DNA from: Natronoarchaeum mannanilyticum
GTDB lineage: Archaea; Halobacteriota; Halobacteria; Halobacteriales; Natronoarchaeaceae
DNA: 64,000 nt
NCBI RefSeq assembly: GCF_039522665.1
Contig: NZ_BAAADV010000004.1
Coordinates: 62,001 to 126,000 of the forward strand
Direction: 5' to 3'
The notes under the pieces were generated by a model, which did not search any database, had not been told where the DNA came from, and saw only the letters and a program-made list of their open reading frames with translations. The translations under genes and the position numbers were made by a program. How positions within the stretch are numbered: position 1 is the first letter of the stretch; each line of letters starts with the position of its first letter. Below, piece after piece: positions 5,761-18,237 of this stretch.

Positions 5761-5799
5761 GCCCGCCGGAAGGCCGGCCCGGCCGTATCTAGGACCAAG

Positions 5800-5909
5800 G
5801 GTTCAAAGCCCTCAAAGGAAACACGGGGTATCCGAACCTGAACTAAAGGTTCTATATAAAATCCAAGGGAAACACGGCGGAGAACGGTGAACGCATGGTT
5901 CAAAGCCCT
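5800..5909. repeat. Interleaved short direct repeats at the edge of the AT-rich island
   Basis: GGTTCAAAGCCCT occurs at 5800-5812 and again at 5897-5909. Between them GGAAACACGG occurs at 5817-5826 and 5868-5877, within 15-mers that match at 13 positions. The sequence CTCAAAGGAAAC (5811-5822) has a near copy, CTCAAGGGAAAC, at 7583-7594 on the far side of the next gene. The repeats look like footprints of insertion or recombination. Confidence 0.5.
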
Positions 5910-5927
5910 TGACAGGCGATTGTGTGT

Positions 5928-7520
5928 TTATGCGCTTGTGGGTTCGAGTAGTTGGTTGGTGGTTTCGATTGATGCGGATGCTGTTCCTGAAACCATTTGT
6001 TCGTATATTTCTTCGTCCAGTTCCTCCACGTAATCAACGATGGTTTCTTCGGGGTTGTTCCAGGCTTTTTCTACCGTGCTTTGGTCTACTTTGGCGTAAA
6101 TCGGATTTTCGACCGTTCCGCCGACAAGGTAGTTTTCGTGTCCGTTTCTGAGTTTGTTGTATGCTTTGGACTGGTCTTTGATTTCTTGGAATAGTTCTTC
6201 GTCGTATTCGTCGTTCACGTTCCAGTTCCGGAGTTTATCCATAAGATCAGGTAGGTAGTTACCTACCGGAGCAATACCCGACTCAGCTGAATTCGTTGTT
6301 AGTTCTACATCTTCATCCTGCCCTGTTGCTATGCCTCTAAGAACGGTGGAAGCATAGAAATTTCCGTCTCTGAGGCTGAGAGAGTTTTTTCCTGTCTTTT
6401 CTCCGTTGAATCTGAGTGGGTGCCACCAGCTGCTGTATGCGTCGTGGTCTGGGTTGAGGTAGTTTGAGTTTTCGACCAGTGGGTGGTATTGTTCTCCGGT
6501 TTCGGGGCTCCATGTTTCTGGGGCGGATATTGTTTCCATGATTCGGAGTTCGTTGTTGGTTTGGTCGTAGACAAGTCCGTTTCCGTGTGTGCTGGCTGGT
6601 GCTTCCGGTAGGTCGAACGCCCAGAAATGCGACTCAATATCGGTATGTTGGTCGAGTCCTTCTTGTAGTACTGCTGCGTATAGTTCGTCTTCCGTGGAGA
6701 TCGGTCCGGGATCATCGAAGTTTCTCTGCCAGTTGAATAAGTAGGTCTGTAGCCAGTCTAATGCTTCTCCGACTGATTCTGAGCTGGAGAATTTTTGGTA
6801 GTCGAAGTGTCCGTACGTGTTGGATTTTCCTTCTTCGTTAGGGTATCTGACGCTTTCTGGCCGGGTTTTAGCTTGGTGTGATATGCTGTCTTCTGGTGTG
6901 TCTGTGCCGATTGATTGTATGAACTGGCTTCCTTCTTGGTGTTCGATGTTTTCGTAGTCGTTATCGTGCCAGTTTTCTAGTTTTTGGAGGTCGATGGTTA
7001 GTTGGTTGTGTTGTATCTGTTTTGGTGGTTGGTATGTGGTGAAGATGTTGCTGTCGGCGTTGTTTTCGTTAGCTGGTTGGAGGTTGAGTAGGTGGGTTTG
7101 AGGGGTTTCTTTGGTTATTCGGTGGCTGTCTTTGTTTCTGTTTGAGGTGAGTGTGAACGTGTTTTCTCCGTTCTGGAGGTCTCCTGGAGGCACTGTTATT
7201 TCTTGTTCGAGTGTACGACCTAGGTCGTTCCAGGACTGGTACTCTTCTCCGTTGCTTTCCAGTACTGCTTCTCCGAGTTTACTGTCTGCTTCTATCTCCG
7301 CAGTCAGAGTGGCTTGCACATCCTCCAAACTATCCTCATCGGTCCAGACTGAAGGTAGACGGATAGTATCTTCATGGGCTGAGAGATCGATTTTATTTAC
7401 ATTGACAGAATCATTGGCGTTGCTGCTAAGCGGATCCGCACATCCAGTTAAAAGTGTTGTCGCTATTGTAGTTCCTGTCTGCAATATTCTACGGCGGGAG
7501 TAGAGATCTTCGTCGGCCAT
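5928..7520 (-). CDS. AT-rich Tat lipoprotein, unknown function, probably acquired
   Basis: A 530-residue protein with a twin-arginine signal (SRRRILQTG, residues 8-16) and a lipobox LLTGC (cysteine about residue 26), so it is predicted to be exported folded and lipid-anchored. The mature part is rich in Asn, Gln, Thr and aromatic residues, and its codons are far richer in A/T than any neighbour. A central segment (about residues 275-360) contains DELYAAVLQEGLDQHTD, HFWAFDLPEAP and HGNGLVYDQ. It resembles the middle of transglutaminase-like or peptidase folds, but no full catalytic triad can be assigned. No operon partner. Atypical composition with flanking repeats suggests horizontal transfer. 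Confidence 0.75.
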   Translation of the reverse strand: MADEDLYSRRRILQTGTTIATTLLTGCADPLSSNANDSVNVNKIDLSAHEDTIRLPSVWTDEDSLEDVQATLTAEIEADSKLGEAVLESNGEEYQSWNDLGRTLEQEITVPPGDLQNGENTFTLTSNRNKDSHRITKETPQTHLLNLQPANENNADSNIFTTYQPPKQIQHNQLTIDLQKLENWHDNDYENIEHQEGSQFIQSIGTDTPEDSISHQAKTRPESVRYPNEEGKSNTYGHFDYQKFSSSESVGEALDWLQTYLFNWQRNFDDPGPISTEDELYAAVLQEGLDQHTDIESHFWAFDLPEAPASTHGNGLVYDQTNNELRIMETISAPETWSPETGEQYHPLVENSNYLNPDHDAYSSWWHPLRFNGEKTGKNSLSLRDGNFYASTVLRGIATGQDEDVELTTNSAESGIAPVGNYLPDLMDKLRNWNVNDEYDEELFQEIKDQSKAYNKLRNGHENYLVGGTVENPIYAKVDQSTVEKAWNNPEETIVDYVEELDEEIYEQMVSGTASASIETTNQLLEPTSA

Positions 7521-7791
7521 ACCAGTTATTATCTATATTTAGAAGACAGCTTTCAAATAATTACTGGACGGTAAACACATCTCTCAAGGGAAACTGCTTC
7601 ACTCCTCCACCTAGTTTCTTTTAAACCTCAAACGATACCTATTGTTTACAAAATCCAAATGAAGGGGGGAGAACCGGAAAGAACATCAATGGAAGACGGA
7701 TAACAGATAAGATCTAGCCCCGTCCGAGCGCCCGATCGACGCCATCCTGACAATGATACGATTTATTAGTTGCCGGAAATAACATCGCCCC

Positions 7792-8577
7792 ATGATCGCG
7801 AACCTCCCGCCGTGGCTGCTCGCCGTCGGCGTCGGCCTCGCGGCGCTGGTCGGCTGGCTGTGGTGGCACGCCGCAATCGAACTGTGGCAGGGCTGGACGC
7901 TGTGGCGCAACGATCCCGTGGCGGTGATGGACGTCGCGAACGTCACCGGCGCGGTCGAAGTCGAGGGGACGGCGGCGTCGGGCGGACGGACGCTGCAGTC
8001 GCCGTTCACGGGGACGCCGACGCTCGTTTGCGAGTACAAGATTCAGGAGTGGAAAAGTTCCGGGAAGAACAGCCACTGGGAGACGCTCCACGAGAACCTC
8101 AACGCCGTTCCGTTCCTGCTGGAAGACGACAGCGGCAGCGTCGCGATCGATCCCGAGGGCGCCGAGTACTCGCTGGAACGCGACGCCGAGATCGAGTCCG
8201 ACGGCGGCGAGACGCCGCCCGAGGAGATCCAGGAGTTTCTCGATAGCGTGGGCGTCGAGCGCGAGGAGGGCGGCGAGACCTCGATCGGCCCGCTCTCGAT
8301 CCACCACGGCGATCGGCGGCGCTACATCGAGCGGCGCATCGACGCCGGCGACGAGATCCACGTCTACGGACAGTCGCGACACGGGCGCTCGATAGGGGAC
8401 GTTTCCGGGTCCGTGAACGCCGTGATCGGCAGCGGGAAGGCGACGCCGCGGTTCCGCATCTCGAAGGGCTCCGAATCCGACGCGATCCGGCGGCAGGTCA
8501 AGTCCGGCGCGACGTACGCGATCTTCGGCGCCGTGATCGTCGCCATCGCCGGGGCCTTCGTCGTCGGCGGACTCTGA
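7792..8577 (+). CDS. GIDE-domain membrane protein
   Basis: A 261-residue protein with an N-terminal membrane helix (about residues 8-25), a soluble domain and a C-terminal helix (about residues 240-259, YAIFGAVIVAIAGAFVVGG). The soluble part follows the GIDE pattern known from the membrane side of eukaryotic MUL1/GIDE ubiquitin ligases: ALSPFTG-like block LQSPFTGTPTLVCEYKIQ, then E-rich and DAGDEIHVYGQ motifs. The RING domain of the eukaryotic proteins is absent, so ubiquitin ligation should not be inferred. TTTATTAG at about 7763-7770 is a TATA element at the right distance. Confidence 0.72.
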   Translation: MIANLPPWLLAVGVGLAALVGWLWWHAAIELWQGWTLWRNDPVAVMDVANVTGAVEVEGTAASGGRTLQSPFTGTPTLVCEYKIQEWKSSGKNSHWETLHENLNAVPFLLEDDSGSVAIDPEGAEYSLERDAEIESDGGETPPEEIQEFLDSVGVEREEGGETSIGPLSIHHGDRRRYIERRIDAGDEIHVYGQSRHGRSIGDVSGSVNAVIGSGKATPRFRISKGSESDAIRRQVKSGATYAIFGAVIVAIAGAFVVGGL

Positions 8578-8653
8578 TGCGGTTCCGAGAACCGATCGGA
8601 GCGCGCTGGCCGCGACCACGGGCTTTAACGCTCCCCGCTCCCAAGTGACGCGC

Positions 8654-9010
8654 ATGTCAGCGCTGCGCGAGGCCCTGCGCGACCTCCCCGACGCCGTGTT
8701 CGCCGACCTCCTCGAGAGCGACGAGGCGTACAAGCTGGTGATCGACCTGCCGGGCGTCACCGCCGAGACGCTGGACGTGCGCGTCGAGGACGGCCGCCTC
8801 GTGATCGAAGCGCGGCGCACGAAGTCCGCTCCCGCGGAGTTTCGCTACCTCCGCGAGGACCGATCCCTGTTTCTCGACGCCGAACTACCCCTGCCGCCGG
8901 ACGCCTCGGGCGAGGACGCCGAGGCCTCGATGTCGAGCGGCGTCCTCGAGCTCACCGTGCCCAAGCGGGGCCAGGACGTCGAAACTACCATCGAAGTCAC
9001 CGCCGAGTAG
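8654..9010 (+). CDS. Small heat shock protein, Hsp20/alpha-crystallin family
   Basis: A 118-residue protein with the alpha-crystallin fold: YKLVIDLPGVTAETLDVRVEDG (first half), LVIEARR, YLREDRSLFLDAELPLP and a terminal GVLELTVPKRG. It is short at both ends compared with classical Hsp20. GGCTTTAACG at about 8621-8630 is a TATA element for a leaderless start at ATG 8654; a GTG at 8645 is less likely. Such proteins hold unfolding clients in an ATP-independent manner. The AarF kinase gene follows after six bases and may be cotranscribed. Confidence 0.82.
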   Translation: MSALREALRDLPDAVFADLLESDEAYKLVIDLPGVTAETLDVRVEDGRLVIEARRTKSAPAEFRYLREDRSLFLDAELPLPPDASGEDAEASMSSGVLELTVPKRGQDVETTIEVTAE

Positions 9011-9016
9011 CGCGAG

Positions 9017-10690
9017 GTGGTGACGCTGGTGAACCTCAGGGCGTACTGGCGCTTTCTCGTCGTCGCCAGGCGCTTTCTGCCGCTGTTGCTCGCCTACGCC
9101 CGGGACCGCAACCGGTTCCTGCTGTTCGGCCGCGGTCGGCAGGTCGACGCCGAGACCCGACAGCAGCGCGCCGAGCACCTGCTCGACGCCCTGCTGACGC
9201 TGGGGCCGACGTTCATCAAGCTCGGCCAGCTGCTCTCGACGCGGCCGGACATCCTGCCCCCGGAGTACATCGAGGTGCTCTCCCAGTTGCAAGACGAGGT
9301 GCCGCCGGCGGAGTGGGAGCCAGCTCGCGAAGTGCTCGAAGACGAACTCGGGCCGATCGACGACCGGTTCGACGAGTTCGACACCGACCCGATCAGCGGC
9401 GCCAGCCTGGGGCAGGTGTACCGCGCGACGGTCGACGGCGACGACGTGGCCGTGAAGATCCGCCGCCCCGGCGTCGAGTCGCTCGTCGAGGCCGACCTGC
9501 GCGTGGTCAAGTGGTCGCTCCCGCTGCTGTTGCGCTTCGTCGGCGAGGGCCGCTCGTTCTCGCTGCGGAACCTCGCCGACGAGTTCGACAAGACGATCCG
9601 CGAGGAGATGGACTACCAGCGCGAGGCCGCGATGCTCACCGAGATCCGCGGGAACTTCTCGGACGACGAGGCCATCAAGATCCCGCCGGTCGTCGAGAGC
9701 CACTCCGGCCCGCGCGTGCTCACGATGGAGTACCTTCCGGGGACGAAGATCAGCCGCGTCGACGAACTCGACGAGCGCGGCGTGGACCGAGGCGCCGTCG
9801 CCGAAAACCTCCAGCGGGCGTACATGCAGATGATCATCGACGACGGCGTGTTCCACGCCGACCCCCACCCCGGCAATCTCGCGGTGCAGGACGACGGGAC
9901 GATCGTGTTCTACGACTTCGGGATGAGCGGGCGGGTCGACGCGTTCCTCCAGGAGAAGATCGTCGACTTCTACGTCGCCATCGCCAACCAGGACATCGAC
10001 GGCATCCTCGACGCGCTCATCGAGATGGGGACGCTCAGCCCCGACGCCGACCGGGCGGTGATGGCAGACGTGATGGAGCTGGCGATCGCCGACGCCCGCG
10101 GCGAGGACATCGAGCAGTACCGCGTCCAGCAGATCGTCGGCCAGATCGAGGACTCGATCTACGAGTTCCCGTTCCGCCTGCCGAAGAACCTCGCGCTCGT
10201 CCTGCGCGTCGCGACGGTCGTCGAGGGGGTCTGCGTCACCCTCGACGAGAACCACGACTTCATCTCCAGCGCGACGGAGTATCTCACCGAGCAGGGCTAC
10301 CGCGAGGAGACCGCCCGACGCTACGTCGCGGAGGCCGGCGAGCAGTTCCGCGAGTCGGCCGAGTCGGCCGTCCGCGTGCCGCCGAAACTCGAGAGCGCGC
10401 TCGACCGCGTCGAGCGCGAGGACTTCCATCTCCGGGCGGATCTGGAGGATTCGGACGACCTGCTGGACAAGCTGGCGAAACGGATCGTCCTCGGGATGCT
10501 GGGCGCCGCCGGAACGCTATCGACGGCGCTGCTGTACGCCTGGGGAACCATCCTCTCGGCGGCGATCGCCGGCGCGTTCACAGTGTTCGTCGTCGCGATG
10601 CTGTACCGCTCGTTCCGCAGCAGGCGCGGCATCCGCGCGAAGCCGCAGTTCACCCGCCAGAGCATGCGCCAGCGGCGCGGCGGCGACTGA
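9017..10690 (+). CDS. AarF/ABC1/UbiB atypical protein kinase-like ATPase
   Basis: A 557-residue ABC1-family protein. Family marks are the KxGQ motif in FIKLGQLLSTRPDILPPEY (about residues 72-90), the alanine-rich loop SGASLGQVYRA, the lysine VAVKIRRPG, and the catalytic and metal motifs HADPHPGN and YDFGMSG. Two membrane helices close the protein (about residues 493-540). Bacterial and mitochondrial relatives support quinone biosynthesis; haloarchaea use menaquinones, so a lipid or quinone handling role at the membrane is inferred. The GTG start is six bases after the Hsp20 stop. Confidence 0.85.
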   Translation: MVTLVNLRAYWRFLVVARRFLPLLLAYARDRNRFLLFGRGRQVDAETRQQRAEHLLDALLTLGPTFIKLGQLLSTRPDILPPEYIEVLSQLQDEVPPAEWEPAREVLEDELGPIDDRFDEFDTDPISGASLGQVYRATVDGDDVAVKIRRPGVESLVEADLRVVKWSLPLLLRFVGEGRSFSLRNLADEFDKTIREEMDYQREAAMLTEIRGNFSDDEAIKIPPVVESHSGPRVLTMEYLPGTKISRVDELDERGVDRGAVAENLQRAYMQMIIDDGVFHADPHPGNLAVQDDGTIVFYDFGMSGRVDAFLQEKIVDFYVAIANQDIDGILDALIEMGTLSPDADRAVMADVMELAIADARGEDIEQYRVQQIVGQIEDSIYEFPFRLPKNLALVLRVATVVEGVCVTLDENHDFISSATEYLTEQGYREETARRYVAEAGEQFRESAESAVRVPPKLESALDRVEREDFHLRADLEDSDDLLDKLAKRIVLGMLGAAGTLSTALLYAWGTILSAAIAGAFTVFVVAMLYRSFRSRRGIRAKPQFTRQSMRQRRGGD

Positions 10691-10714
10691 GGACGTTCGG
10701 CACCTCTCGGCTCG

Positions 10715-11104
10715 TCAGTACTCCCGGAACTGCGCCGACCCGACGTCGATCCGCACGAGCACGTTCTCGGCGTAGGCGTCCTCGCTCGCGCCGTACTTCG
10801 CGTTGATCCGACGAGCGGCCTCGCGCGTCGCCGCCTCGTCGTCGACGATCTCGGCGGTGCCGTGGAGCGCGACCATCCACTCGGCGTCGCCGCCGACGGC
10901 CTTCTGGACCGAGATCGCCACCTTCGGGTTCTCGCGGATATCTCGGAGTTTTCGGCCACCGGTCAGCACCTCGACGACGCCGTCGGCGTAGTCGTACCAG
11001 ACCGGCGCGACGTGGGGCCGGTCGTCGACGCTGGTCGCGAGGTGGGCCATCAGCGGCTCGCCGGTGAGCAGCGTCTCGGCTCGTTCGGGAACGGCGTCTG
11101 CCAT
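10715..11104 (-). CDS. Pyridoxamine 5'-phosphate oxidase-like FMN-binding protein
   Basis: A 129-residue split-barrel protein. The typical opening GEPLMAHLATSVDDRPHVAPVWYDYADG (given here in parts: MAHLATSVDD, HVAPVWYDY) is followed by KLRDIRENPKVAISV and a final VLVRIDV strand, the pattern of F420/FMN-binding PNPOx-like proteins. Length fits the single-domain class. Deazaflavin F420 is common in haloarchaea, so an F420-dependent reductase is as likely as an FMN enzyme. No operon partner. Confidence 0.75.
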   Translation of the reverse strand: MADAVPERAETLLTGEPLMAHLATSVDDRPHVAPVWYDYADGVVEVLTGGRKLRDIRENPKVAISVQKAVGGDAEWMVALHGTAEIVDDEAATREAARRINAKYGASEDAYAENVLVRIDVGSAQFREY

Positions 11105-11172
11105 AGCGGGCGTACGACCTCGACGCGGAAAACAGTCAGACTCGCCCTGCAGAGATCACCAGGATGCCGGAT

Positions 11173-11844
11173 CTAGTTCAGCCCGAGTCGCTCGGCGATC
11201 GCATCCGAAATGTCGTTCAGGTAGACGCCGCCCCACACCGCCACGATGACGGCGCCGACAGAGTTGTACAGGACGTCCTTCAGCGTGTCGTAGACGCCGT
11301 ACTGGGTGAGCACCGACGCGGTGCCGAACTCCGTGGCGGCGACGCCGATCCCGAACTCCAGCAGTTCCCACACCACCGCGAACGCCAGCACGAACAGCAG
11401 GATGATCACGCCCATGAACTTCGGCGGCAGGAACACCTTCTCGGAGTGCTGATCGACGGCCCGCGCCGTCGCGTAGCCGGCCGCCGCGACGACCGACGAC
11501 GAGAGGGCGTGTGTGATGTGGTCCCAGTATTCGCTGACCACCGGGACGCCGGAGTAGAAGTTCCCCTCCGTCACGCCCGGGATGCCGACGACGCCGACGC
11601 CGTGGAGGAATGCGGCGCTCGTGATCCACAGCGTGAGCCGGGGGTCCATCGGCAGATCGTAGTCACGTTCGAGGATCGGCGGGAGCTGGGTCACCGCCAG
11701 ACACATGCCGGCGTTGACGATGACGCCGACGCTGCCTCGTTCGAGACCGACGAACAGCAGGCCGACCAGACTGATCTCCATGAAGTACGACAGCTGGCGC
11801 TGGCGTCGCTTCGAGGGGAGCCCCCGAGAAAGCAGGTTGTTCAC
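11173..11844 (-). CDS. Polytopic membrane protein, YjdF/DUF2238-like
   Basis: A 223-residue protein with about six membrane helices. The conserved C-terminal block YDTLKDVLYNSVGAVIVAVWGG (split as YDTLKDVLYNS and GAVIVAVWG) and the acidic residue in AVVWELLEFG match the DUF2238/YjdF group. Its ATG overlaps the stop of the upstream gene by four bases (ATGA), so the two are cotranslated. Function unknown. The upstream gene has a similar helix pattern and may be a diverged paralogue. Confidence 0.65.
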   Translation of the reverse strand: MNNLLSRGLPSKRRQRQLSYFMEISLVGLLFVGLERGSVGVIVNAGMCLAVTQLPPILERDYDLPMDPRLTLWITSAAFLHGVGVVGIPGVTEGNFYSGVPVVSEYWDHITHALSSSVVAAAGYATARAVDQHSEKVFLPPKFMGVIILLFVLAFAVVWELLEFGIGVAATEFGTASVLTQYGVYDTLKDVLYNSVGAVIVAVWGGVYLNDISDAIAERLGLN

Positions 11845-12491
11845 AGGCGCTCACCTCGCTCGTCGCCGAGCACCTCGTCTTTCATCTCGGCGGGCACGCG
11901 ATCCTCCATGGTGATCCGGCGCCGGAAGTACAGCGTGAACACGCCGCCCGCGAACAGCCCCGCGAGAGTACAGTAGATCCACTCCCACATCAGGTTCGCG
12001 TTGGCCTGATCCGGGTCGTCGACGGGGGTGATGTAGCTGGTTCCCAGGTAGATGTCGAATCCCCACTGAACCACGCCCCACAGCGCCGCTGCGGCCATCG
12101 TCGACATGACGACGAGCACGACCGCGAAGCCGGGAGAGAGCCGGATCGACGTGAACGACTGGAGTTCGACGGCGATCACCAGCGCGATCGCGGCGACCGC
12201 GAAGTACGCCGCGAACTGGCTCGACAGTATCTCGGCGCCGAGTGCGAGTCCGACGACCGGTAGCGCGGCCATCAGCAACACCTCCCAGGGCAGCATTATC
12301 CGCGGCGTCCGGTAGGCTGCGGGCGGTATCAGCGCCAGTACGAGCAACACGAACGCGAACAGCGACCAGAGCGCGCCCGCTCTCACGACGACGCCCACGC
12401 TCGCGGCCGCCAGCAGCGCGACCAGCAGCCAGGCGATGACCGCGTTTCTGCGGCCGTCGTCGAGCATCTGATCGAGCTCGGAAAGAGACAT
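11841..12491 (-). CDS. Polytopic membrane protein paired with the DUF2238-like gene
   Basis: A 216-residue protein with six predicted membrane helices and a WEWIYCTLAGLFAG block near the C-terminus (compare WELLEFG in the partner), followed by a charged cytoplasmic tail. An upstream in-frame ATG at 12515 exists, but TTTTATG at about 12514-12520 is a TATA element 25 bases before the ATG at 12491, which is therefore the likely leaderless start. It is the first gene of a two-gene operon. Function unknown. Confidence 0.62.
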   Translation of the reverse strand: MSLSELDQMLDDGRRNAVIAWLLVALLAAASVGVVVRAGALWSLFAFVLLVLALIPPAAYRTPRIMLPWEVLLMAALPVVGLALGAEILSSQFAAYFAVAAIALVIAVELQSFTSIRLSPGFAVVLVVMSTMAAAALWGVVQWGFDIYLGTSYITPVDDPDQANANLMWEWIYCTLAGLFAGGVFTLYFRRRITMEDRVPAEMKDEVLGDERGERL

Positions 12492-12572
12492 AGCGACCGT
12501 AAGGACTTCCCACATAAAATTATGTGTGGCCGGCAGGCATCGGGGTGGGTCGGTCCGGCTCGCGACGCGGCG

Positions 12573-13568
12573 TCACGCCGCGACGACGAGGTACACCGCC
12601 GCGTACCCGACCAGCGCCGCGGTGATCCCCGTCAGCGCGGTGAACGTGATGCCCAGCAGCAGGGGATGACGCCCGAACTGCCGTCGAAGTTCTGCTGCGG
12701 TCGGCACCGCGGTCGGTCGGGTCGAGACGCCCGCACAGATCACGCCGACCGAGAGGATCGAGAACACGAAGTGATAGGACACCGCCAGCGTCGGCGGCGC
12801 CATCGCGACCGCTGCGACGCCGTACGCGGCGCCGGCGAGCGCCCGCAGATCGATCAGCTCTCCCATCGAGAACCCCGCGACGCGAGCGATCGTCACGGCG
12901 GCGAGCCACGCGACCGAGAGTTCGATCGCGAACGCGCCCAGCAGGTGGAGCGTGGGATCGCCATGGAGCAGCACACGACCGTCGAACACGCCGACGTCGA
13001 ACGGGTAGAACAGCCGGGGCGGCTCGCCGGTTACCAGATCGCCCCACGGGTGGGAGAGCAGCCCGGCGGTCGCCGCGAGCGCGACGGTCCGCGCCGGGAA
13101 GTCGGTCGCGATCCGGCACAGCGTCGCGACGCCGACGCCGGCGACCGCGAACAGCCCCATCACGACGCCGCCGAGCGGGCCGCTCACCGCGTAGGCGGCG
13201 CCGACCAGCGCCGCGAGCGCGACGGCGCTGACGCCCCGCCCCGCCGCTCGGGTCAGCTGCGAACCGGTTCGCTTGACCGCCCAGAGGCCGAACGCGGGAC
13301 CCGCAAGCAGCGCGACGACCAGCGAGTGGGTCATCGTCCGGTGGACGTCCCGCGTCGCGTCCCAGAACGTGCTGGGCTGTGTGATCGAGGCGGCGTTGAG
13401 TGCGTCGACGTCGATCGCCACCGCGGCGTACGCGACGTCGACGTCGGGGATCGCGGCGAACGCACCGGCGACCAGCCCGAGCGTCAGCGCCCGCCGAGCC
13501 GGCCAGCCTCGCCAGTCCGCGACCAGCGTCGCGAGGGCGAACGCCAGCAGCGCGTGTCCGAGAAACAC
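12573..13568 (-). CDS. Membrane-bound metal-dependent hydrolase, YdjM/DUF457 family
   Basis: A 331-residue membrane protein. It opens with MFLGHALLAFALATL, then IPDVDVAYA (about residues 40-48) and HRTMTHSLV (about residues 77-85), the conserved H/D/H set of the YdjM family, then HPWGDLVTG later (LLSHPWGDL). Longer than the bacterial members (about 170-200), because the C-terminal half adds extra helices. Members are induced with DNA damage in bacteria (YdjM) but the reaction is not known. No close operon partner. Confidence 0.75.
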   Translation of the reverse strand: MFLGHALLAFALATLVADWRGWPARRALTLGLVAGAFAAIPDVDVAYAAVAIDVDALNAASITQPSTFWDATRDVHRTMTHSLVVALLAGPAFGLWAVKRTGSQLTRAAGRGVSAVALAALVGAAYAVSGPLGGVVMGLFAVAGVGVATLCRIATDFPARTVALAATAGLLSHPWGDLVTGEPPRLFYPFDVGVFDGRVLLHGDPTLHLLGAFAIELSVAWLAAVTIARVAGFSMGELIDLRALAGAAYGVAAVAMAPPTLAVSYHFVFSILSVGVICAGVSTRPTAVPTAAELRRQFGRHPLLLGITFTALTGITAALVGYAAVYLVVAA

Positions 13569-13930
13569 GTCACCGCGGCTAGGTTAGGAGCGCGTATAAG
13601 CCCCTCGCCGGGCGTGTGCGGTGGTGACAGTGCTCCGGCCGCGCCGGTGCGGACGGTTTTAGTTCAGCGGGCGCGTACCGACGACCGGCCGATGACGACG
13701 GCTCCGCTCCGAGCCGGACTCGGCACCCGGCGACGACGAGCCCTATGAGTGCCGAGGCCGACTTTTCGACCTCTGGAATGTCGTCGAGCCCGCGGCCCAC
13801 ATTTCGAGAACCAATTTCCGTAATACACGTGGTATTATTCAGCGGTAGAGATGTGACGCAGTTAATATACGTAGCTGAAATTTAATTTTGCTAGATTTAA
13901 GCACCCGTTCGTTGACGTTCGAAATAGGCC
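13569..13930. other. Intergenic region with promoter elements of the IMPase-like gene
   Basis: No convincing gene in this 362-base gap. TTTAAG at 13896-13901 is a TATA element 30 bases before the next ATG. TAATAC (13821-13826) and GTATTA (13832-13837) form an inverted repeat around a CACGTG-like centre and may be an operator. Two short overlapping reading frames (18 and 46 codons) are seen but have no support. Confidence 0.5.
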
Positions 13931-14998
13931 ATGTCCAATGGCAATGGTGGTTACGAACGCGACAGCGGTACAGAGAGCGAAGCGCGCCGCCGGTTTCTCA
14001 AGCTGGCGGGCGTGACCGGGGCCGCCGGCATCGTCGGCTCCAACGGGATGCTCAGCGCGCTCGCTCAGGAGGGTGACGACGAGGGGGTCGAGATCGATGA
14101 CCTTCAGGGTCAGTTGCCGATCGAGGACCGATACCTCCGGATCGCGGTTCTGGCGACGGCGAAGGCGGCACAGCTCCACCAGAACTACTACGGCGAGATC
14201 GGACAGGCGGAGGAGAAAGATCCGCAGAACCTCCTCACCCAGGTCGACACGGAGGCCGAGACGCTGATCCGCGACACGATCAGGGAGGAGCTCGGCGACG
14301 ACTTCGAGGACGAGAACCACGCGCTGTACGGCGAGGAACAGGGCGGGCAGCTCGAAGGCGGGTACGTCTGGATCATCGACCCGCTCGACGGGACGACGAA
14401 CTTCGTCAAGGGGATTCCCCATTTCGGCGTCAACCTCGCGGTCACGAAGGACGGGGAGCTACACGCCGGCGTGATGTACTACTCGCTCTGGGACGAGGTG
14501 TACGTCGCGGTCAGGGACGAGGGCGCCTACAAGTTCCGGAGCGACGGCTACGACCTCGTCGCCGAGGACTCGGAGCCCGCGGAGCTGTCGGTCTCCGACA
14601 CCGAGGCCGTCGAGGACTCGTTCCACGGCGTCGGCTTCTACAGCCGCGCGACGGCGGACGACTTCGACTACATGGGGCTGTGGCGGTACCTGTTCGCGAA
14701 CACCCAGGGGACGCGACTGCTCGGGGCCGCCGCGCCCGACCTGGCGTTCGTCGCCGAGGGCGTGTTCGACACCGTCTCGGTGAAGGACCTGAAGCCGGTC
14801 GATGTCGCACCGGAGGCGCTGATCGTCCGCGAGGCGGGCGGCACGGTGACCGACTTCGAGGGGAACACCGACCTCGACAGTATTCTGGAGGGGAACGTCG
14901 TCGCCTCGAACGGCGAACTCCACGACGACTTCTTCGATCTGCTCGAAGACTCCGGGAAGGACTGGCTCACGAGGCCGATCGACACGCTCGAACGCTAG
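13931..14998 (+). CDS. Tat-exported inositol monophosphatase family protein
   Basis: A 355-residue protein with a twin-arginine signal (ARRRFLKLAGVTG, about residues 16-28) and cleavage near ALAQ-EG. The mature part is an IMPase-fold phosphatase: GEEQGG (Mg-binding glutamate), the signature DPLDGTTNFVKGIPHF (about residues 151-166) with two metal-binding aspartates, and GAAAPDLAFVAEGVFD. The late WDxAxG motif is replaced by VDVAPEALIVREAGG, keeping the aspartate. Most IMPases are cytoplasmic, so export is unusual. The following gene is an exported GDPD, which suggests a joint role in using external phosphoesters. Confidence 0.82.
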   Translation: MSNGNGGYERDSGTESEARRRFLKLAGVTGAAGIVGSNGMLSALAQEGDDEGVEIDDLQGQLPIEDRYLRIAVLATAKAAQLHQNYYGEIGQAEEKDPQNLLTQVDTEAETLIRDTIREELGDDFEDENHALYGEEQGGQLEGGYVWIIDPLDGTTNFVKGIPHFGVNLAVTKDGELHAGVMYYSLWDEVYVAVRDEGAYKFRSDGYDLVAEDSEPAELSVSDTEAVEDSFHGVGFYSRATADDFDYMGLWRYLFANTQGTRLLGAAAPDLAFVAEGVFDTVSVKDLKPVDVAPEALIVREAGGTVTDFEGNTDLDSILEGNVVASNGELHDDFFDLLEDSGKDWLTRPIDTLER

Positions 14999-15084
14999 CC
15001 CGCGGTTCCGGTCGTCCGGGGGATGCTTCCGCTGCCTTCGCTCGGGGCGGACAGCCGCCGGTGACAATAAACATATATTAAAAT

Positions 15085-15106
15085 TATTTTATAAAATATT
15101 TTATCA
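15085..15106 (+). promoter_or_regulatory. AT-only promoter with a 14-bp palindrome before the GDPD gene
   Basis: TATTTTATAAAATA at 15085-15098 is a perfect palindrome. It is followed by TTTTATC, which lies about 30 bases before the ATG at 15134 and can serve as the TATA element. The whole stretch 15064-15104 has almost no G or C, in sharp contrast with the rest of the window, so this is either a strong promoter or a regulated one. Confidence 0.5.
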
Positions 15107-15133
15107 TGGGGCTCGTTGTCACCGTTCCATGCA

Positions 15134-16126
15134 ATGTTCGAGATTCCCGACATCGACCGGCGAACCCTGCTGAAGGCGACGGGCGGCGCAGTAATAGGAT
15201 CGTACGTGGGAGGGGCAGCGAATGCAGAGGGACGCGACGACGGCGATTCGCGGGACGACGAGTCGACGACGCTGATCGCGCACCGCGGGTTCGCGGGCGT
15301 GTATCCGGAGAACACGGTCGCCGCGGTGGAGAACGCCTCGAGAGGGGGAAAAGGTCGCGGCGCGGCCCGGCGCGGCGCAGACATGATCGAGATCGACGTG
15401 GTGCCCTGCGGCGGACGCCCCCACGAGGGCGACGACTTCGAGGTCGTGGTCTTCCACGACGACCGGCTCGCTTCGCGCGACGGCGGAGAGCGGGGGGTCA
15501 CCGACCACGAGAACACGCTCGTGTGGGACACGCCCTGTTCGGAGGTGCGAAGCGCCGAGGTCCTCGACAGCGGTGAGACGGTGCCGACGCTGCGGGAGGT
15601 CCTGTCGGCGATCCCGCCGAGCGTGGCCGTCAACGTCGAACTGAAGAACCCGGGCGATGTCGACGTCCGGTTCGCCGAGAAGCTGGAAGGGGACGAACTG
15701 GAGGGCCGGAAGGACGTCTGGCGGCCGTTCGCGCGGCGCGTGCTCGACGTCGCGTCCGAGTTCGAGAATCACGTCCTCGTGTCGTCGTTCATGGAGGCCG
15801 CGCTCGCGACGACGCGGGAGTGCGACGCCGACGTTCCGATCGCGTTCCTGTTCTGGGACTCGATCGACGTCGGACTCGAGATCACCGACGAGTACGACTG
15901 CGAGGCGCTCCATCCGCCGTACAACATGGTCGAAGGGACGCCGTTCTTCAACGACTCCTACTACATCGACGATCCCGGATTCGCCGACATCGACCTGGTA
16001 GAGCGGGCCCACGACGAGGGGCGGGAGGTCAACACGTGGACGGTCGGTACCTGGTACCAGGCGGAGCAGCTCGTCGACGCGGGGGTCGACGGGATCATCG
16101 CCGACTATCCCGGCCTGCTCGCGTAA
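15134..16126 (+). CDS. Tat-exported glycerophosphodiester phosphodiesterase
   Basis: A 330-residue GDPD-family protein. The twin-arginine signal DRRTLLKATGGAV (about residues 8-20) is followed by the catalytic parts IAHRGFAGVYPENT (His, Arg, Glu), MIEIDV (Glu, Asp) and VVFHDDRL (second His). Late motifs VNVELKNPG and VNTWTVGT, and a final GVDGIIADYP, complete the TIM barrel. It starts at ATG 15134, where the signal begins; a TTG at 15116 is less likely. GDPDs release glycerol-3-phosphate from deacylated phospholipids; archaeal lipids are built on glycerol-1-phosphate, so the substrate is probably dissolved organic phosphate from other organisms. Confidence 0.85.
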   Translation: MFEIPDIDRRTLLKATGGAVIGSYVGGAANAEGRDDGDSRDDESTTLIAHRGFAGVYPENTVAAVENASRGGKGRGAARRGADMIEIDVVPCGGRPHEGDDFEVVVFHDDRLASRDGGERGVTDHENTLVWDTPCSEVRSAEVLDSGETVPTLREVLSAIPPSVAVNVELKNPGDVDVRFAEKLEGDELEGRKDVWRPFARRVLDVASEFENHVLVSSFMEAALATTRECDADVPIAFLFWDSIDVGLEITDEYDCEALHPPYNMVEGTPFFNDSYYIDDPGFADIDLVERAHDEGREVNTWTVGTWYQAEQLVDAGVDGIIADYPGLLA

Positions 16127-16468
16127 GTCGGCGACGCGGCGCCTCTGAGTCGGCGCTGCTGCTCTCTCGACACCGCCGGGTCCGATCTCGACCGCGAGAG
16201 TTTCCCCGTTCTGAACGGTGTCGCGTCGCATTACGGCCGATCCGGGAACAGCGTCAGATGGCCCACGATGATCCGGCTCTCTAGCCTGCCCTCGAGCGGT
16301 CCCGGCGGTTCGCTCTCGATCGCCGGGATTTCGTCGGCGATCCCCGGAGCTGCCGTCGGACGTCGACGCCGATCGGCGAGACCGACCGGCGCTCGGCGTC
16401 GAACTGGAACGGCGCCATCCCGTCGCCGTTCGCCGTCTCATCGCTATCTCTTCGTCGTCCGCCACCTC
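16127..16468. other. Intergenic region between convergent genes, nothing recognised
   Basis: Open reading frames here are extensions of shadows from the two flanking genes, and none has a start, promoter or composition that supports it. Transcription from both sides ends in this gap. No clear hairpin followed by T-rich sequence was seen. Confidence 0.4.
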
Positions 16469-17503
16469 TCAGCTCGGTCGACGAGCGTCGGTTGCGCTCC
16501 TCCCTGCGAGCGTCGAAGCGTGCGTTTCGGAGCCGGGAGCGCCGGTCGGTGCAGCGACGCGAGCCTCGGCGCCGCTTCCCGACGACGCGAACACGTCAGT
16601 CTCGAAGGTCCGGTTGTAGGAGACGAACTCCAGGGGCAGCTCGCGCTCGATCCCGGCGTACTCGACCGTCGCGTTGAAGTCCACCGAGAGTTGCGTCGTC
16701 TCGTCGTTCCGCAAGTGCGTGACCCACCACTCGTCCAGCTCGGAGTTGTCGATGGTCGCGTTCGCCCGAATCGTCCGGGTGCTCTCGGCTGGGATCAGGG
16801 TCTGCTGGCCGGCCTGCCCTTGCCCGACGACGACCCCGTTCATCCGGACGGTGTAGCTCACGTTCGTGATGGGGAGCGGCGCCGGGAGCGGGTTCGTGAC
16901 CGTCGCGGACGCGTTGATCGGCGTCCGCTCGGCCGTCGCGTGCCCCCACTGCGCGTCGGTCTCGTTGACGACGAGTGCCGTCCGATTGAACGCCGAGAAC
17001 TCGCGCGTTTGCTCCGTCTGCAGCGGTTCGAGGAGATCGGTGCGGAACGTCCGCTCGCGCGTCAACGAGTCCGCCGGGACGTCGACGCCGCCGTACTCCA
17101 GGGCGACCGTTGGATCGACTCGCACGGTCGTCGTCTCGTTCCGGTTGACGTGGGTCACCCACCAGTCCGGAATCTCGTCGTTGTCGACCCACGTTCGGAC
17201 CGTGACGACGTCGTCGCGGCCCTGTAGCTGCACTCGCTTTTCCCGCTCGTCGGCGACCCTGACGTCGTTCATCGCGACGGTGTACCTCACGTTCGCCGCA
17301 CCATCGCTGACGCGGAGCAACAACGGATTGTCGACGGCGATCTCCGTCTCGACCTCGCTCCGATTCTCCTCGACTGTGCCCCAGCTGTTGTCGACCGACT
17401 CGACGCGCGGTCTGTCGACCACCACGAGCCCGTACGCGACGATTCCACCGAGCAACGCGATCACGACGAGCGCGGCGACTCCCGATTTCCACCCGAGGGC
17501 CAT
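16469..17503 (-). CDS. LEA14-like (WHy-domain) membrane-anchored protein
   Basis: A 344-residue protein with an N-terminal membrane anchor (about residues 7-29, VAALVVIALLGGIVAYGLVVV) and two tandem LEA type 2 / WHy domains. The domains are marked by the repeated pair VDNPLLLRV...VRYTVAMNDV and VTNPLPAPLPITNVSYTVRMNG, each ending in an EWWVTHLRN- or DWWVTHVNR-like block. WHy domains occur in desiccation and stress proteins and bind or shield other proteins. The start at 17503 is chosen over 17557, because the residues before it are basic and unlike the protein. Located outside the membrane by inference. Confidence 0.72.
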   Translation of the reverse strand: MALGWKSGVAALVVIALLGGIVAYGLVVVDRPRVESVDNSWGTVEENRSEVETEIAVDNPLLLRVSDGAANVRYTVAMNDVRVADEREKRVQLQGRDDVVTVRTWVDNDEIPDWWVTHVNRNETTTVRVDPTVALEYGGVDVPADSLTRERTFRTDLLEPLQTEQTREFSAFNRTALVVNETDAQWGHATAERTPINASATVTNPLPAPLPITNVSYTVRMNGVVVGQGQAGQQTLIPAESTRTIRANATIDNSELDEWWVTHLRNDETTQLSVDFNATVEYAGIERELPLEFVSYNRTFETDVFASSGSGAEARVAAPTGAPGSETHASTLAGRSATDARRPS

Positions 17504-17674
17504 CGATAGTTGGTGACTCGACGGACGTGTCCTTTGACGCCGACGTGGCAGTTGCAAGCCCCTTACGTGCCCCTCGAACTGACCGTGCGCGTCGGATTAC
17601 CGCCCCGGTTTTAGTTCGCCTGCACACCCAACGTCCGCGCTCATTGACGGCGCCGTGGCAGCGGCTAGTGGATC

Positions 17675-18166
17675 ATGACTACCGAATCAACCGACGAACT
17701 GCTCGTACAGGGCCTCGAAGAGCTGTACTACACCGAACAGAAGCTGCTCGACGCGCTCGACACGCTGGCCGACCAGACCGACCACGAGGAGGTCAGTCAG
17801 GGATTCGCCGAGCACCGCGAGGAGACCGAGCAGCACGTCGAGCGCCTCGAAAAAGTGTTCGAGGAGATCGGCGAGGAGCCCCAGCGCCGCGAGGAGCGGG
17901 TCGTCGACGCGCTGATCCAGGAACACGAGGCGTTCGCCGGCGAGAACGACGGCGAGGTGCTCGACCGGTACAACATCTCGACGGGCCAGAAGACCGAGCA
18001 CTACGAGATCGCGATGTACGGGAACGTCACGTCGCTGGCGGGCAAGCTCGGCCACGACGAGGCCGCAGACATACTAGAGGAGACGCTGCGCGAGGAAGAG
18101 GCGGCGCTCGACGAACTCTCGGAGGCCGGCGAGCAGTTCGATCGGCAGCAAGTCGCCGGCGACTGA
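17675..18166 (+). CDS. DUF892 ferritin-like protein (YciE/YciF family)
   Basis: A 163-residue acidic all-helical protein. GLEELYYTEQKLLDALDTLA (helix 1), FAEHREETEQHVERLEKVF (helix 2), LIQEHEAF and EHYEIAMYGNVTSLA (helix 3) carry the Glu/His pattern of the four-helix ferritin-like DUF892 fold. Bacterial relatives are induced by stress; metal binding is likely but the role is not settled. GGTTTTAGTTC at about 17608-17618 is the promoter element. Confidence 0.85.
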   Translation: MTTESTDELLVQGLEELYYTEQKLLDALDTLADQTDHEEVSQGFAEHREETEQHVERLEKVFEEIGEEPQRREERVVDALIQEHEAFAGENDGEVLDRYNISTGQKTEHYEIAMYGNVTSLAGKLGHDEAADILEETLREEEAALDELSEAGEQFDRQQVAGD

Positions 18167-18237
18167 ATCGCCGAGGCGCCTCCGTGGCGGGCGGCTCCGG
18201 CGATCGATCGCACGCTGCTCACTACGCGAGCATCGCG

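Follow-up and report, generated by a model that had tools for sequence, protein, structure and literature searches.

Tandem genes for a predicted Tat-exported IMPase-fold phosphatase and glycerophosphodiesterase in haloarchaea: a candidate mobile unit for organophosphate scavenging

Two phosphoesterase genes in tandem

Two plus-strand genes for phosphoesterases lie side by side in Natronoarchaeum mannanilyticum, within a 64-kb stretch of DNA (G000:C4:62001-126000) that was analysed as a whole and that we refer to as the window. The upstream gene encodes an IMPase-fold phosphatase and the downstream gene a glycerophosphodiester phosphodiesterase (GDPD). The features of the locus are as follows.

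13855–13930, plus strand: leader and promoter region of the IMPase gene, rich in AT; the sister copy is homologous from about 13872 on
13872–16143, plus strand: two-gene unit common to the window and the pair locus of the sister species (83% DNA identity, 2300 alignment columns)
13931–14998, plus strand: Tat-signal IMPase-fold phosphatase, 355 amino acids (Pfam, TAT profile and alignment)
15073–15104, plus strand: A/T-only promoter tract of 32 bp that serves as TATA-like region for the GDPD gene; also kept in the sister species and on the Natrinema plasmid
15131–16126, plus strand: Tat-signal GDPD, 331 amino acids from ATG 15131

The IMPase matches PF00459 over residues 68–338 (Pfam; E = 3.1e-46, 158.5 bits against a gathering threshold of 27), its catalytic and metal-binding motifs are complete, and its best matches in the PDB are bacterial SuhB/IMPase proteins. 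The N-terminal signal region, around EARRRFLKLAG, carries the twin-arginine motif RRRFLK without a lipobox cysteine and scores 19.7 bits with the NCBIfam profile TAT_signal_seq (cut-off 16.7). The protein falls under every NCBIfam equivalog cut-off listed, including those for inositol-1-monophosphatase, HisN (124.9 bits, cut-off 275) and CysQ (59 bits, cut-off 228.8); the CysQ, HisN and FBPase/IMPase models match below threshold. Its predicted structure, made from a two-row alignment of the window and L011 sequences only, has a mean pLDDT of 33.8, too low for use.

The GDPD matches PF03009 over residues 51–328 (Pfam; E = 6.1e-24, 85.9 bits against 23.6). We prefer the start at ATG 15131 over TTG 15116 because homology to relatives begins at the ATG. 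From there, the protein reads DRRTLLK followed by a hydrophobic stretch ending in ANA-E. All four sets of catalytic residues (HRG, ExD, HD and ExK) are present in the 30 best GDPD loci, that of the window included. Besides the pair, the window genome encodes one other IMPase-family protein, which is cytosolic, and two other GDPDs, whose domains start without a preceding RR-hydrophobic signal when their open frames are inspected by eye.

The initial annotation of the window described both neighbours as proteins with twin-arginine signals and full catalytic motifs, a description that stands for the IMPase (profile score above cut-off, metal and catalytic motifs present) as for the GDPD (twin-arginine motif in all 30 best loci, four catalytic motifs). 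Both proteins are probably exported through Tat, as suggested by a profile match for the IMPase only and by the twin-arginine motif for the two enzymes alike.

The exported IMPase is the unusual partner

The IMPase superfamily is known mainly for cytosolic housekeeping enzymes. Export of an IMPase-fold enzyme had been called unusual at the outset, and the genome counts bear this out. A search of an order-level set of 392 genomes with the IMPase (E ≤ 1e-45) matched 16, of which 14, from nine genera, have the twin-arginine motif and a near full-length match, and two lack the motif; the exported type is thus found in 14/392 genomes of the order. A phylum-wide draw of 392 genomes gave six matches (E ≤ 1e-40), all from the same order, and seven genomes of the window's own family gave none at E ≤ 1e-30. 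Our literature searches found no description of an exported IMPase in print.

The GDPD query, by comparison, matched 194/392 genomes of the order at E ≤ 1e-45, and the twin-arginine motif is present in all of the best 30 of these matches. In a sample of 30 GDPD loci from different genera, the exported type makes up about two thirds (20/30 by a script rule which, on inspection by eye, had wrongly counted L117 as exported and wrongly rejected L097). These counts make an exported GDPD ordinary and the exported IMPase the unusual part of the pair.

The inositol contact is lost from the IMPase pocket

To our alignment of the 14 exported IMPases we added Escherichia coli SuhB and the cytosolic IMPase of the window genome. 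The metal-binding residues (E, E, D, D, T and K) and the third-site D are each kept in 14/14 exported proteins, which share the motif DPLDGT. At the position of human Glu213, the exported proteins have valine (10), cysteine (3) or methionine (1), and the tryptophan of the WDxA motif is valine in every one; the inositol-contacting glutamate is valine in the window protein too. The tryptophan is kept in SuhB, in the cytosolic IMPase of the window genome and in two haloarchaeal IMPases without a Tat motif. Since the Glu213 position is histidine in those two non-exported relatives and threonine in the cytosolic IMPase, loss of the glutamate alone is not unusual in the order; the combination of valine, cysteine or methionine there with loss of the tryptophan is.

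A published study states that Glu213 hydrogen-bonds the C3 and C4 hydroxyls of inositol, that Ins1P-specific enzymes have glutamate or glutamine at this position and dual or FBP enzymes aspartate, histidine, serine or threonine, and that SuhB is impaired by W234A (PMC2080633). Judged by its aligned residues, the exported IMPase branch fits neither the Ins1P-specific nor the dual/FBP class. Replacement of the inositol-contacting glutamate argues against inositol specificity and does not by itself give the true substrate.

Inositol phosphate as substrate of the IMPase, one of the options in the initial annotation, thus runs against the residues found in all 14 exported proteins. On an inositol-specific reading of that annotation, the GDPD would free inositol phosphate from glycerophosphoinositol outside the cell and the IMPase would then free inositol. 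Membership of PF00459 speaks for such a pathway, as do the inositol-catabolism-type genes with which haloarchaea are described in another report (PMC7760734). Against it stand both the pocket, which lacks the glutamate that marks Ins1P-specific enzymes in the study cited above (PMC2080633) as well as the WDxA tryptophan, and the scores below the inositol-1-monophosphatase and HisN equivalog cut-offs, and we regard an inositol-specific route as improbable.

The pair recurs in different genomic contexts

Because gene calling in our survey of neighbours was crude and overlooked several IMPases, presence of the pair was re-checked by tblastn. An intact tandem pair is found in 3 of the 14 genomes with an exported IMPase, which represent two genera: the window genome (G000), its sister species in the same genus (G008) and G276, a member of another family. 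Relative to the window proteins, the IMPase and GDPD are 90% and 88% identical in G008 and 77% and 79% identical in G276, where 18 bp separate the genes; gaps between the genes of the pair copies are short throughout (about 18 to 140 bp). Two further loci carry remnants. In G318 (locus L057, 7147–7647), the GDPD behind the IMPase matches only as far as residue 136 and breaks off directly ahead of a tRNA-Asp gene, and on plasmid NZ_CP100757.1 of Natrinema gelatinilyticum an intact, 87% identical GDPD follows an IMPase remnant that matches only residues 1–65 and 288–355, in two frames.

The flanks of the pair differ each time, even between the two species of the window's genus, which indicates that the two genes are not adjacent merely through inheritance of their surroundings. 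Between the window and the pair locus of the sister species, nucleotide homology is limited to 13872–16143; the one further match is 80 bp of tRNA-Glu at another place in the window. The left flank of the pair in the window (7774–13762) is collinear with G008:C1:973842-979863, about 0.8 Mb from the sister's own pair, and the 20-kb G008 region there holds no IMPase or GDPD match. The trees group the window genus with members of another family: with G276 and G318 for the IMPase (85/80) and with G276 and G220 for the GDPD (100/100). These groupings across families, together with the seven same-family genomes without an IMPase match, would fit joint transfer of the two genes, followed by loss of either partner.

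Other features of the surrounding DNA also vary. Between the collinear flanks, the region 13763–18218 spans about 4.5 kb in the window, carrying the IMPase–GDPD pair, a LEA_2-domain protein and a DUF892 protein, and is occupied by about 9.9 kb of other DNA in the sister genome. Further left, positions 5764–7773 form a stretch of some 2 kb with a low GC content (49% over 6001–8000), where the otherwise collinear sister has only about 46 bp; this stretch contains a 530-aa open reading frame on the minus strand (5928–7520) that bears RRRILQTGTTIATTLLTGC. In G008, a tRNA-Glu gene is located some 0.3 kb from the pair and, with the GDPD of G318 truncated before tRNA-Asp, a tRNA-linked insertion is possible.

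The two genes might share no biochemical task and travel on one mobile stretch owing to its insertion site. Proximity to a tRNA gene in G008 and truncation before one in G318, the location of the Natrinema copy on plasmid DNA, and the fact that two of the five loci have one gene of the pair broken would all agree with hitch-hiking of this kind. A random passenger pair, however, would not be expected to show homology limited to two genes and their leaders, with such short gaps between the genes, and we consider the explanation unlikely. Persistence of the pair in varied genomic surroundings makes a functional link likely by our reasoning; such a link, suggested in the initial annotation from the window alone, is plausible and better supported than could be known at that point.

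As a description of how the two genes usually occur, the linked unit stands in part: tandem copies recur in different contexts, but tblastn found no GDPD within about 8 kb of the IMPase in 10 of the 14 exported-IMPase genomes, and most GDPDs in the order-level set occur without this IMPase. Co-occurrence of an exported IMPase with any related GDPD, counted with GDPDs lacking a Tat signal and with the truncated G318 copy, is weak (p = 0.005 by genome, 0.095 by genus). In view of those 10 genomes, the IMPase has a use without this GDPD. Its substrate may be an extracellular phosphomonoester of another kind (nucleotides, sugar phosphates or PAP-like compounds), and the enzyme may belong to a general phosphate-scavenging set that the GDPD joins only sometimes. 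IMPases without a GDPD nearby, such as those encoded by Natronorubrum aibiense and Halostagnicola larsenii plasmids, point in this direction, as does the broad substrate range of the superfamily, reflected in the sub-threshold CysQ, HisN and FBPase/IMPase matches. Repetition of the tandem with a GDPD in four genera, counting remnants, weighs on the other side and leaves this explanation rather doubtful.

Each gene has its own AT-rich leader in the window and the sister species

The A/T tract at 15073–15104 is the sole A/T run of at least 20 bp in the 64-kb window, and within it, at 15091–15104, lies the perfect palindrome ATAAAATATTTTAT, which 100 shuffled versions of the window failed to reproduce. 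The initial annotation placed an AT-only palindromic promoter before the GDPD gene. Tract and palindrome are indeed there, but the palindrome is perfect in just two of three related copies (the window's own and that of Natrinema). A conserved palindromic operator is rejected in view of one mismatch in the sister species and the absence of the palindrome and A/T promoter between the IMPase and GDPD genes of G276. The conserved element looks instead like an extended AT-rich, TATA-like region, kept in the sister species and in Natrinema. Because each gene has its own AT-rich leader, co-transcription would not be required in the window's species and its sister.

A perfect 9-nt inverted repeat, CGGTGACAA/TTGTCACCG (15059–15067 and 15116–15124), flanks the promoter tract and is not conserved in the sister species. 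A literature search found no Pho-type box consensus for haloarchaea.

Some related GDPDs lie near phosphate genes

Neighbours of related GDPDs were surveyed by scanning 30 of them against Pfam. In Halapricum desulfuricans, the GDPD adjoins a Tat-signal alkaline phosphatase, and in Haladaptatus salinisoli it lies next to a metallophosphoesterase with a Tat signal, PhoX being encoded two genes further along. Elsewhere, a related GDPD has a HAD-IIA hydrolase and ugpBAEC-like transporter genes of the sugar/G3P ABC type beside it (Haloarcula sinaiiensis, pHsi540), or a divergent PstS-like gene (L103). In 22 genomes, among the matches listed, the distance from a related GDPD to a UgpB-like gene is at most 5 kb. 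The phosphate neighbourhood is a tendency and not a rule, since many other GDPDs adjoin genes with no such connection, for example those for an IclR regulator, replication factor C or deoxyhypusine synthase. A study of Haloferax volcanii reports that phosphate starvation induces a GDPD and a G3P transporter, with the same classes in Halobacterium salinarum (PMC6560208).

Further content was noted at two loci. The Haladaptatus salinisoli plasmid cluster (L135, 986–8028) encodes, in all, an endonuclease/exonuclease/phosphatase-family protein, the Tat-signal metallophosphoesterase, the GDPD, a hypothetical protein and PhoX. At L114 (4190–8245), a GDPD without an export signal lies between a CDP-glycerol glycerophosphotransferase and a long open reading frame, whose start resembles a nucleotidyltransferase and which matches the HAD query; this arrangement may point to a pathway for a cofactor or a glycerol-phosphate polymer.

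With four candidates scored per genome, no UgpB-like protein matched at E ≤ 1e-60 in G000 or G008, and matches of 35–40% were found in G276, G318 and G267. Members of the glycerol kinase family are present in all 15 genomes tested, in 14 of them over the cut-off. Replacement of PhoA by the IMPase found no support, as PF00245 also occurs in the window genome and in the exported-IMPase genomes G267, G116 and G224. With an alkaline phosphatase encoded elsewhere in the window genome, the IMPase is not the sole phosphatase candidate there.

A possible two-step extracellular route

The reading we prefer, to which we give a probability of about 0.5, is that the pair is a small, horizontally spreading unit for organophosphate scavenging. 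Best supported is a two-step extracellular route from phosphodiester to phosphomonoester to phosphate and alcohol, with which the gene identities, Tat motifs, intact metal sites, lost inositol contact, repeated tandem arrangement and presence of glycerol kinase are consistent; activity, substrate, order of steps, regulation and transport are predicted from the sequences. Both enzymes would pass through Tat in folded form. The GDPD would act outside the membrane on glycerophosphodiesters that stem from dead cells, from their lipids or their glycerol-phosphate polymers, and would cut them into a glycerol phosphate and an alcohol. The IMPase-fold enzyme would then free phosphate from the phosphomonoester, as a phosphomonoesterase that depends on Mg and whose altered pocket is not of the inositol type. 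Phosphate transporters could take in the phosphate, and the glycerol could be taken in and phosphorylated by glycerol kinase.

More tentatively, we suggest that the exported IMPases are a separate branch that lost inositol recognition and became an extracellular glycerol-phosphate (or general) phosphomonoesterase of haloarchaea, and that this enzyme forms with the Tat-exported GDPD a 2.2-kb horizontally moving unit that replaces import of glycerol-3-phosphate by dephosphorylation outside the cell.

If this is true, an extracellular branch is added to the IMPase superfamily, and the pair suggests how haloarchaea could feed on the phosphate and glycerol in the debris of other organisms; to our knowledge, the haloarchaea's own ether lipids are not deacylated. 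The two-gene unit would also be simple enough for testing in Haloferax volcanii.

Comparison with known systems

Compared with PF00459 proteins of the SuhB/IMPA1 type, the window IMPase shares the fold family (E = 3e-46), the lysine, the Glu-Glu pair, DPxDGT and the third-site aspartate, and differs in its Tat signal and, like all 14 exported proteins, in having valine, cysteine or methionine for Glu213 and valine for the WDxA tryptophan. The window GDPD resembles the exported haloarchaeal GDPD of the ugp–GDPD locus on Haloarcula sinaiiensis pHsi540 in family, catalytic motifs and Tat-type signal; unlike that enzyme, it is partnered with an IMPase-fold phosphatase and does not lie beside ugp. 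The loci of Halapricum desulfuricans and Haladaptatus salinisoli likewise place a GDPD next to a Tat-signal phosphatase, but the phosphatase has a different fold. In the Pho regulon of Bacillus subtilis, GlpQ/PhoD and alkaline phosphatases carry out extracellular scavenging by phosphodiesterase and phosphatase. The logic proposed for the pair, a diesterase followed by a monoesterase outside the cell, is the same, whereas the fold of the phosphatase differs and the pair is archaeal and predicted to be exported through Tat. Organophosphate scavenging is itself of a known kind, and the pairing of an exported IMPase with a GDPD is a variant of it.
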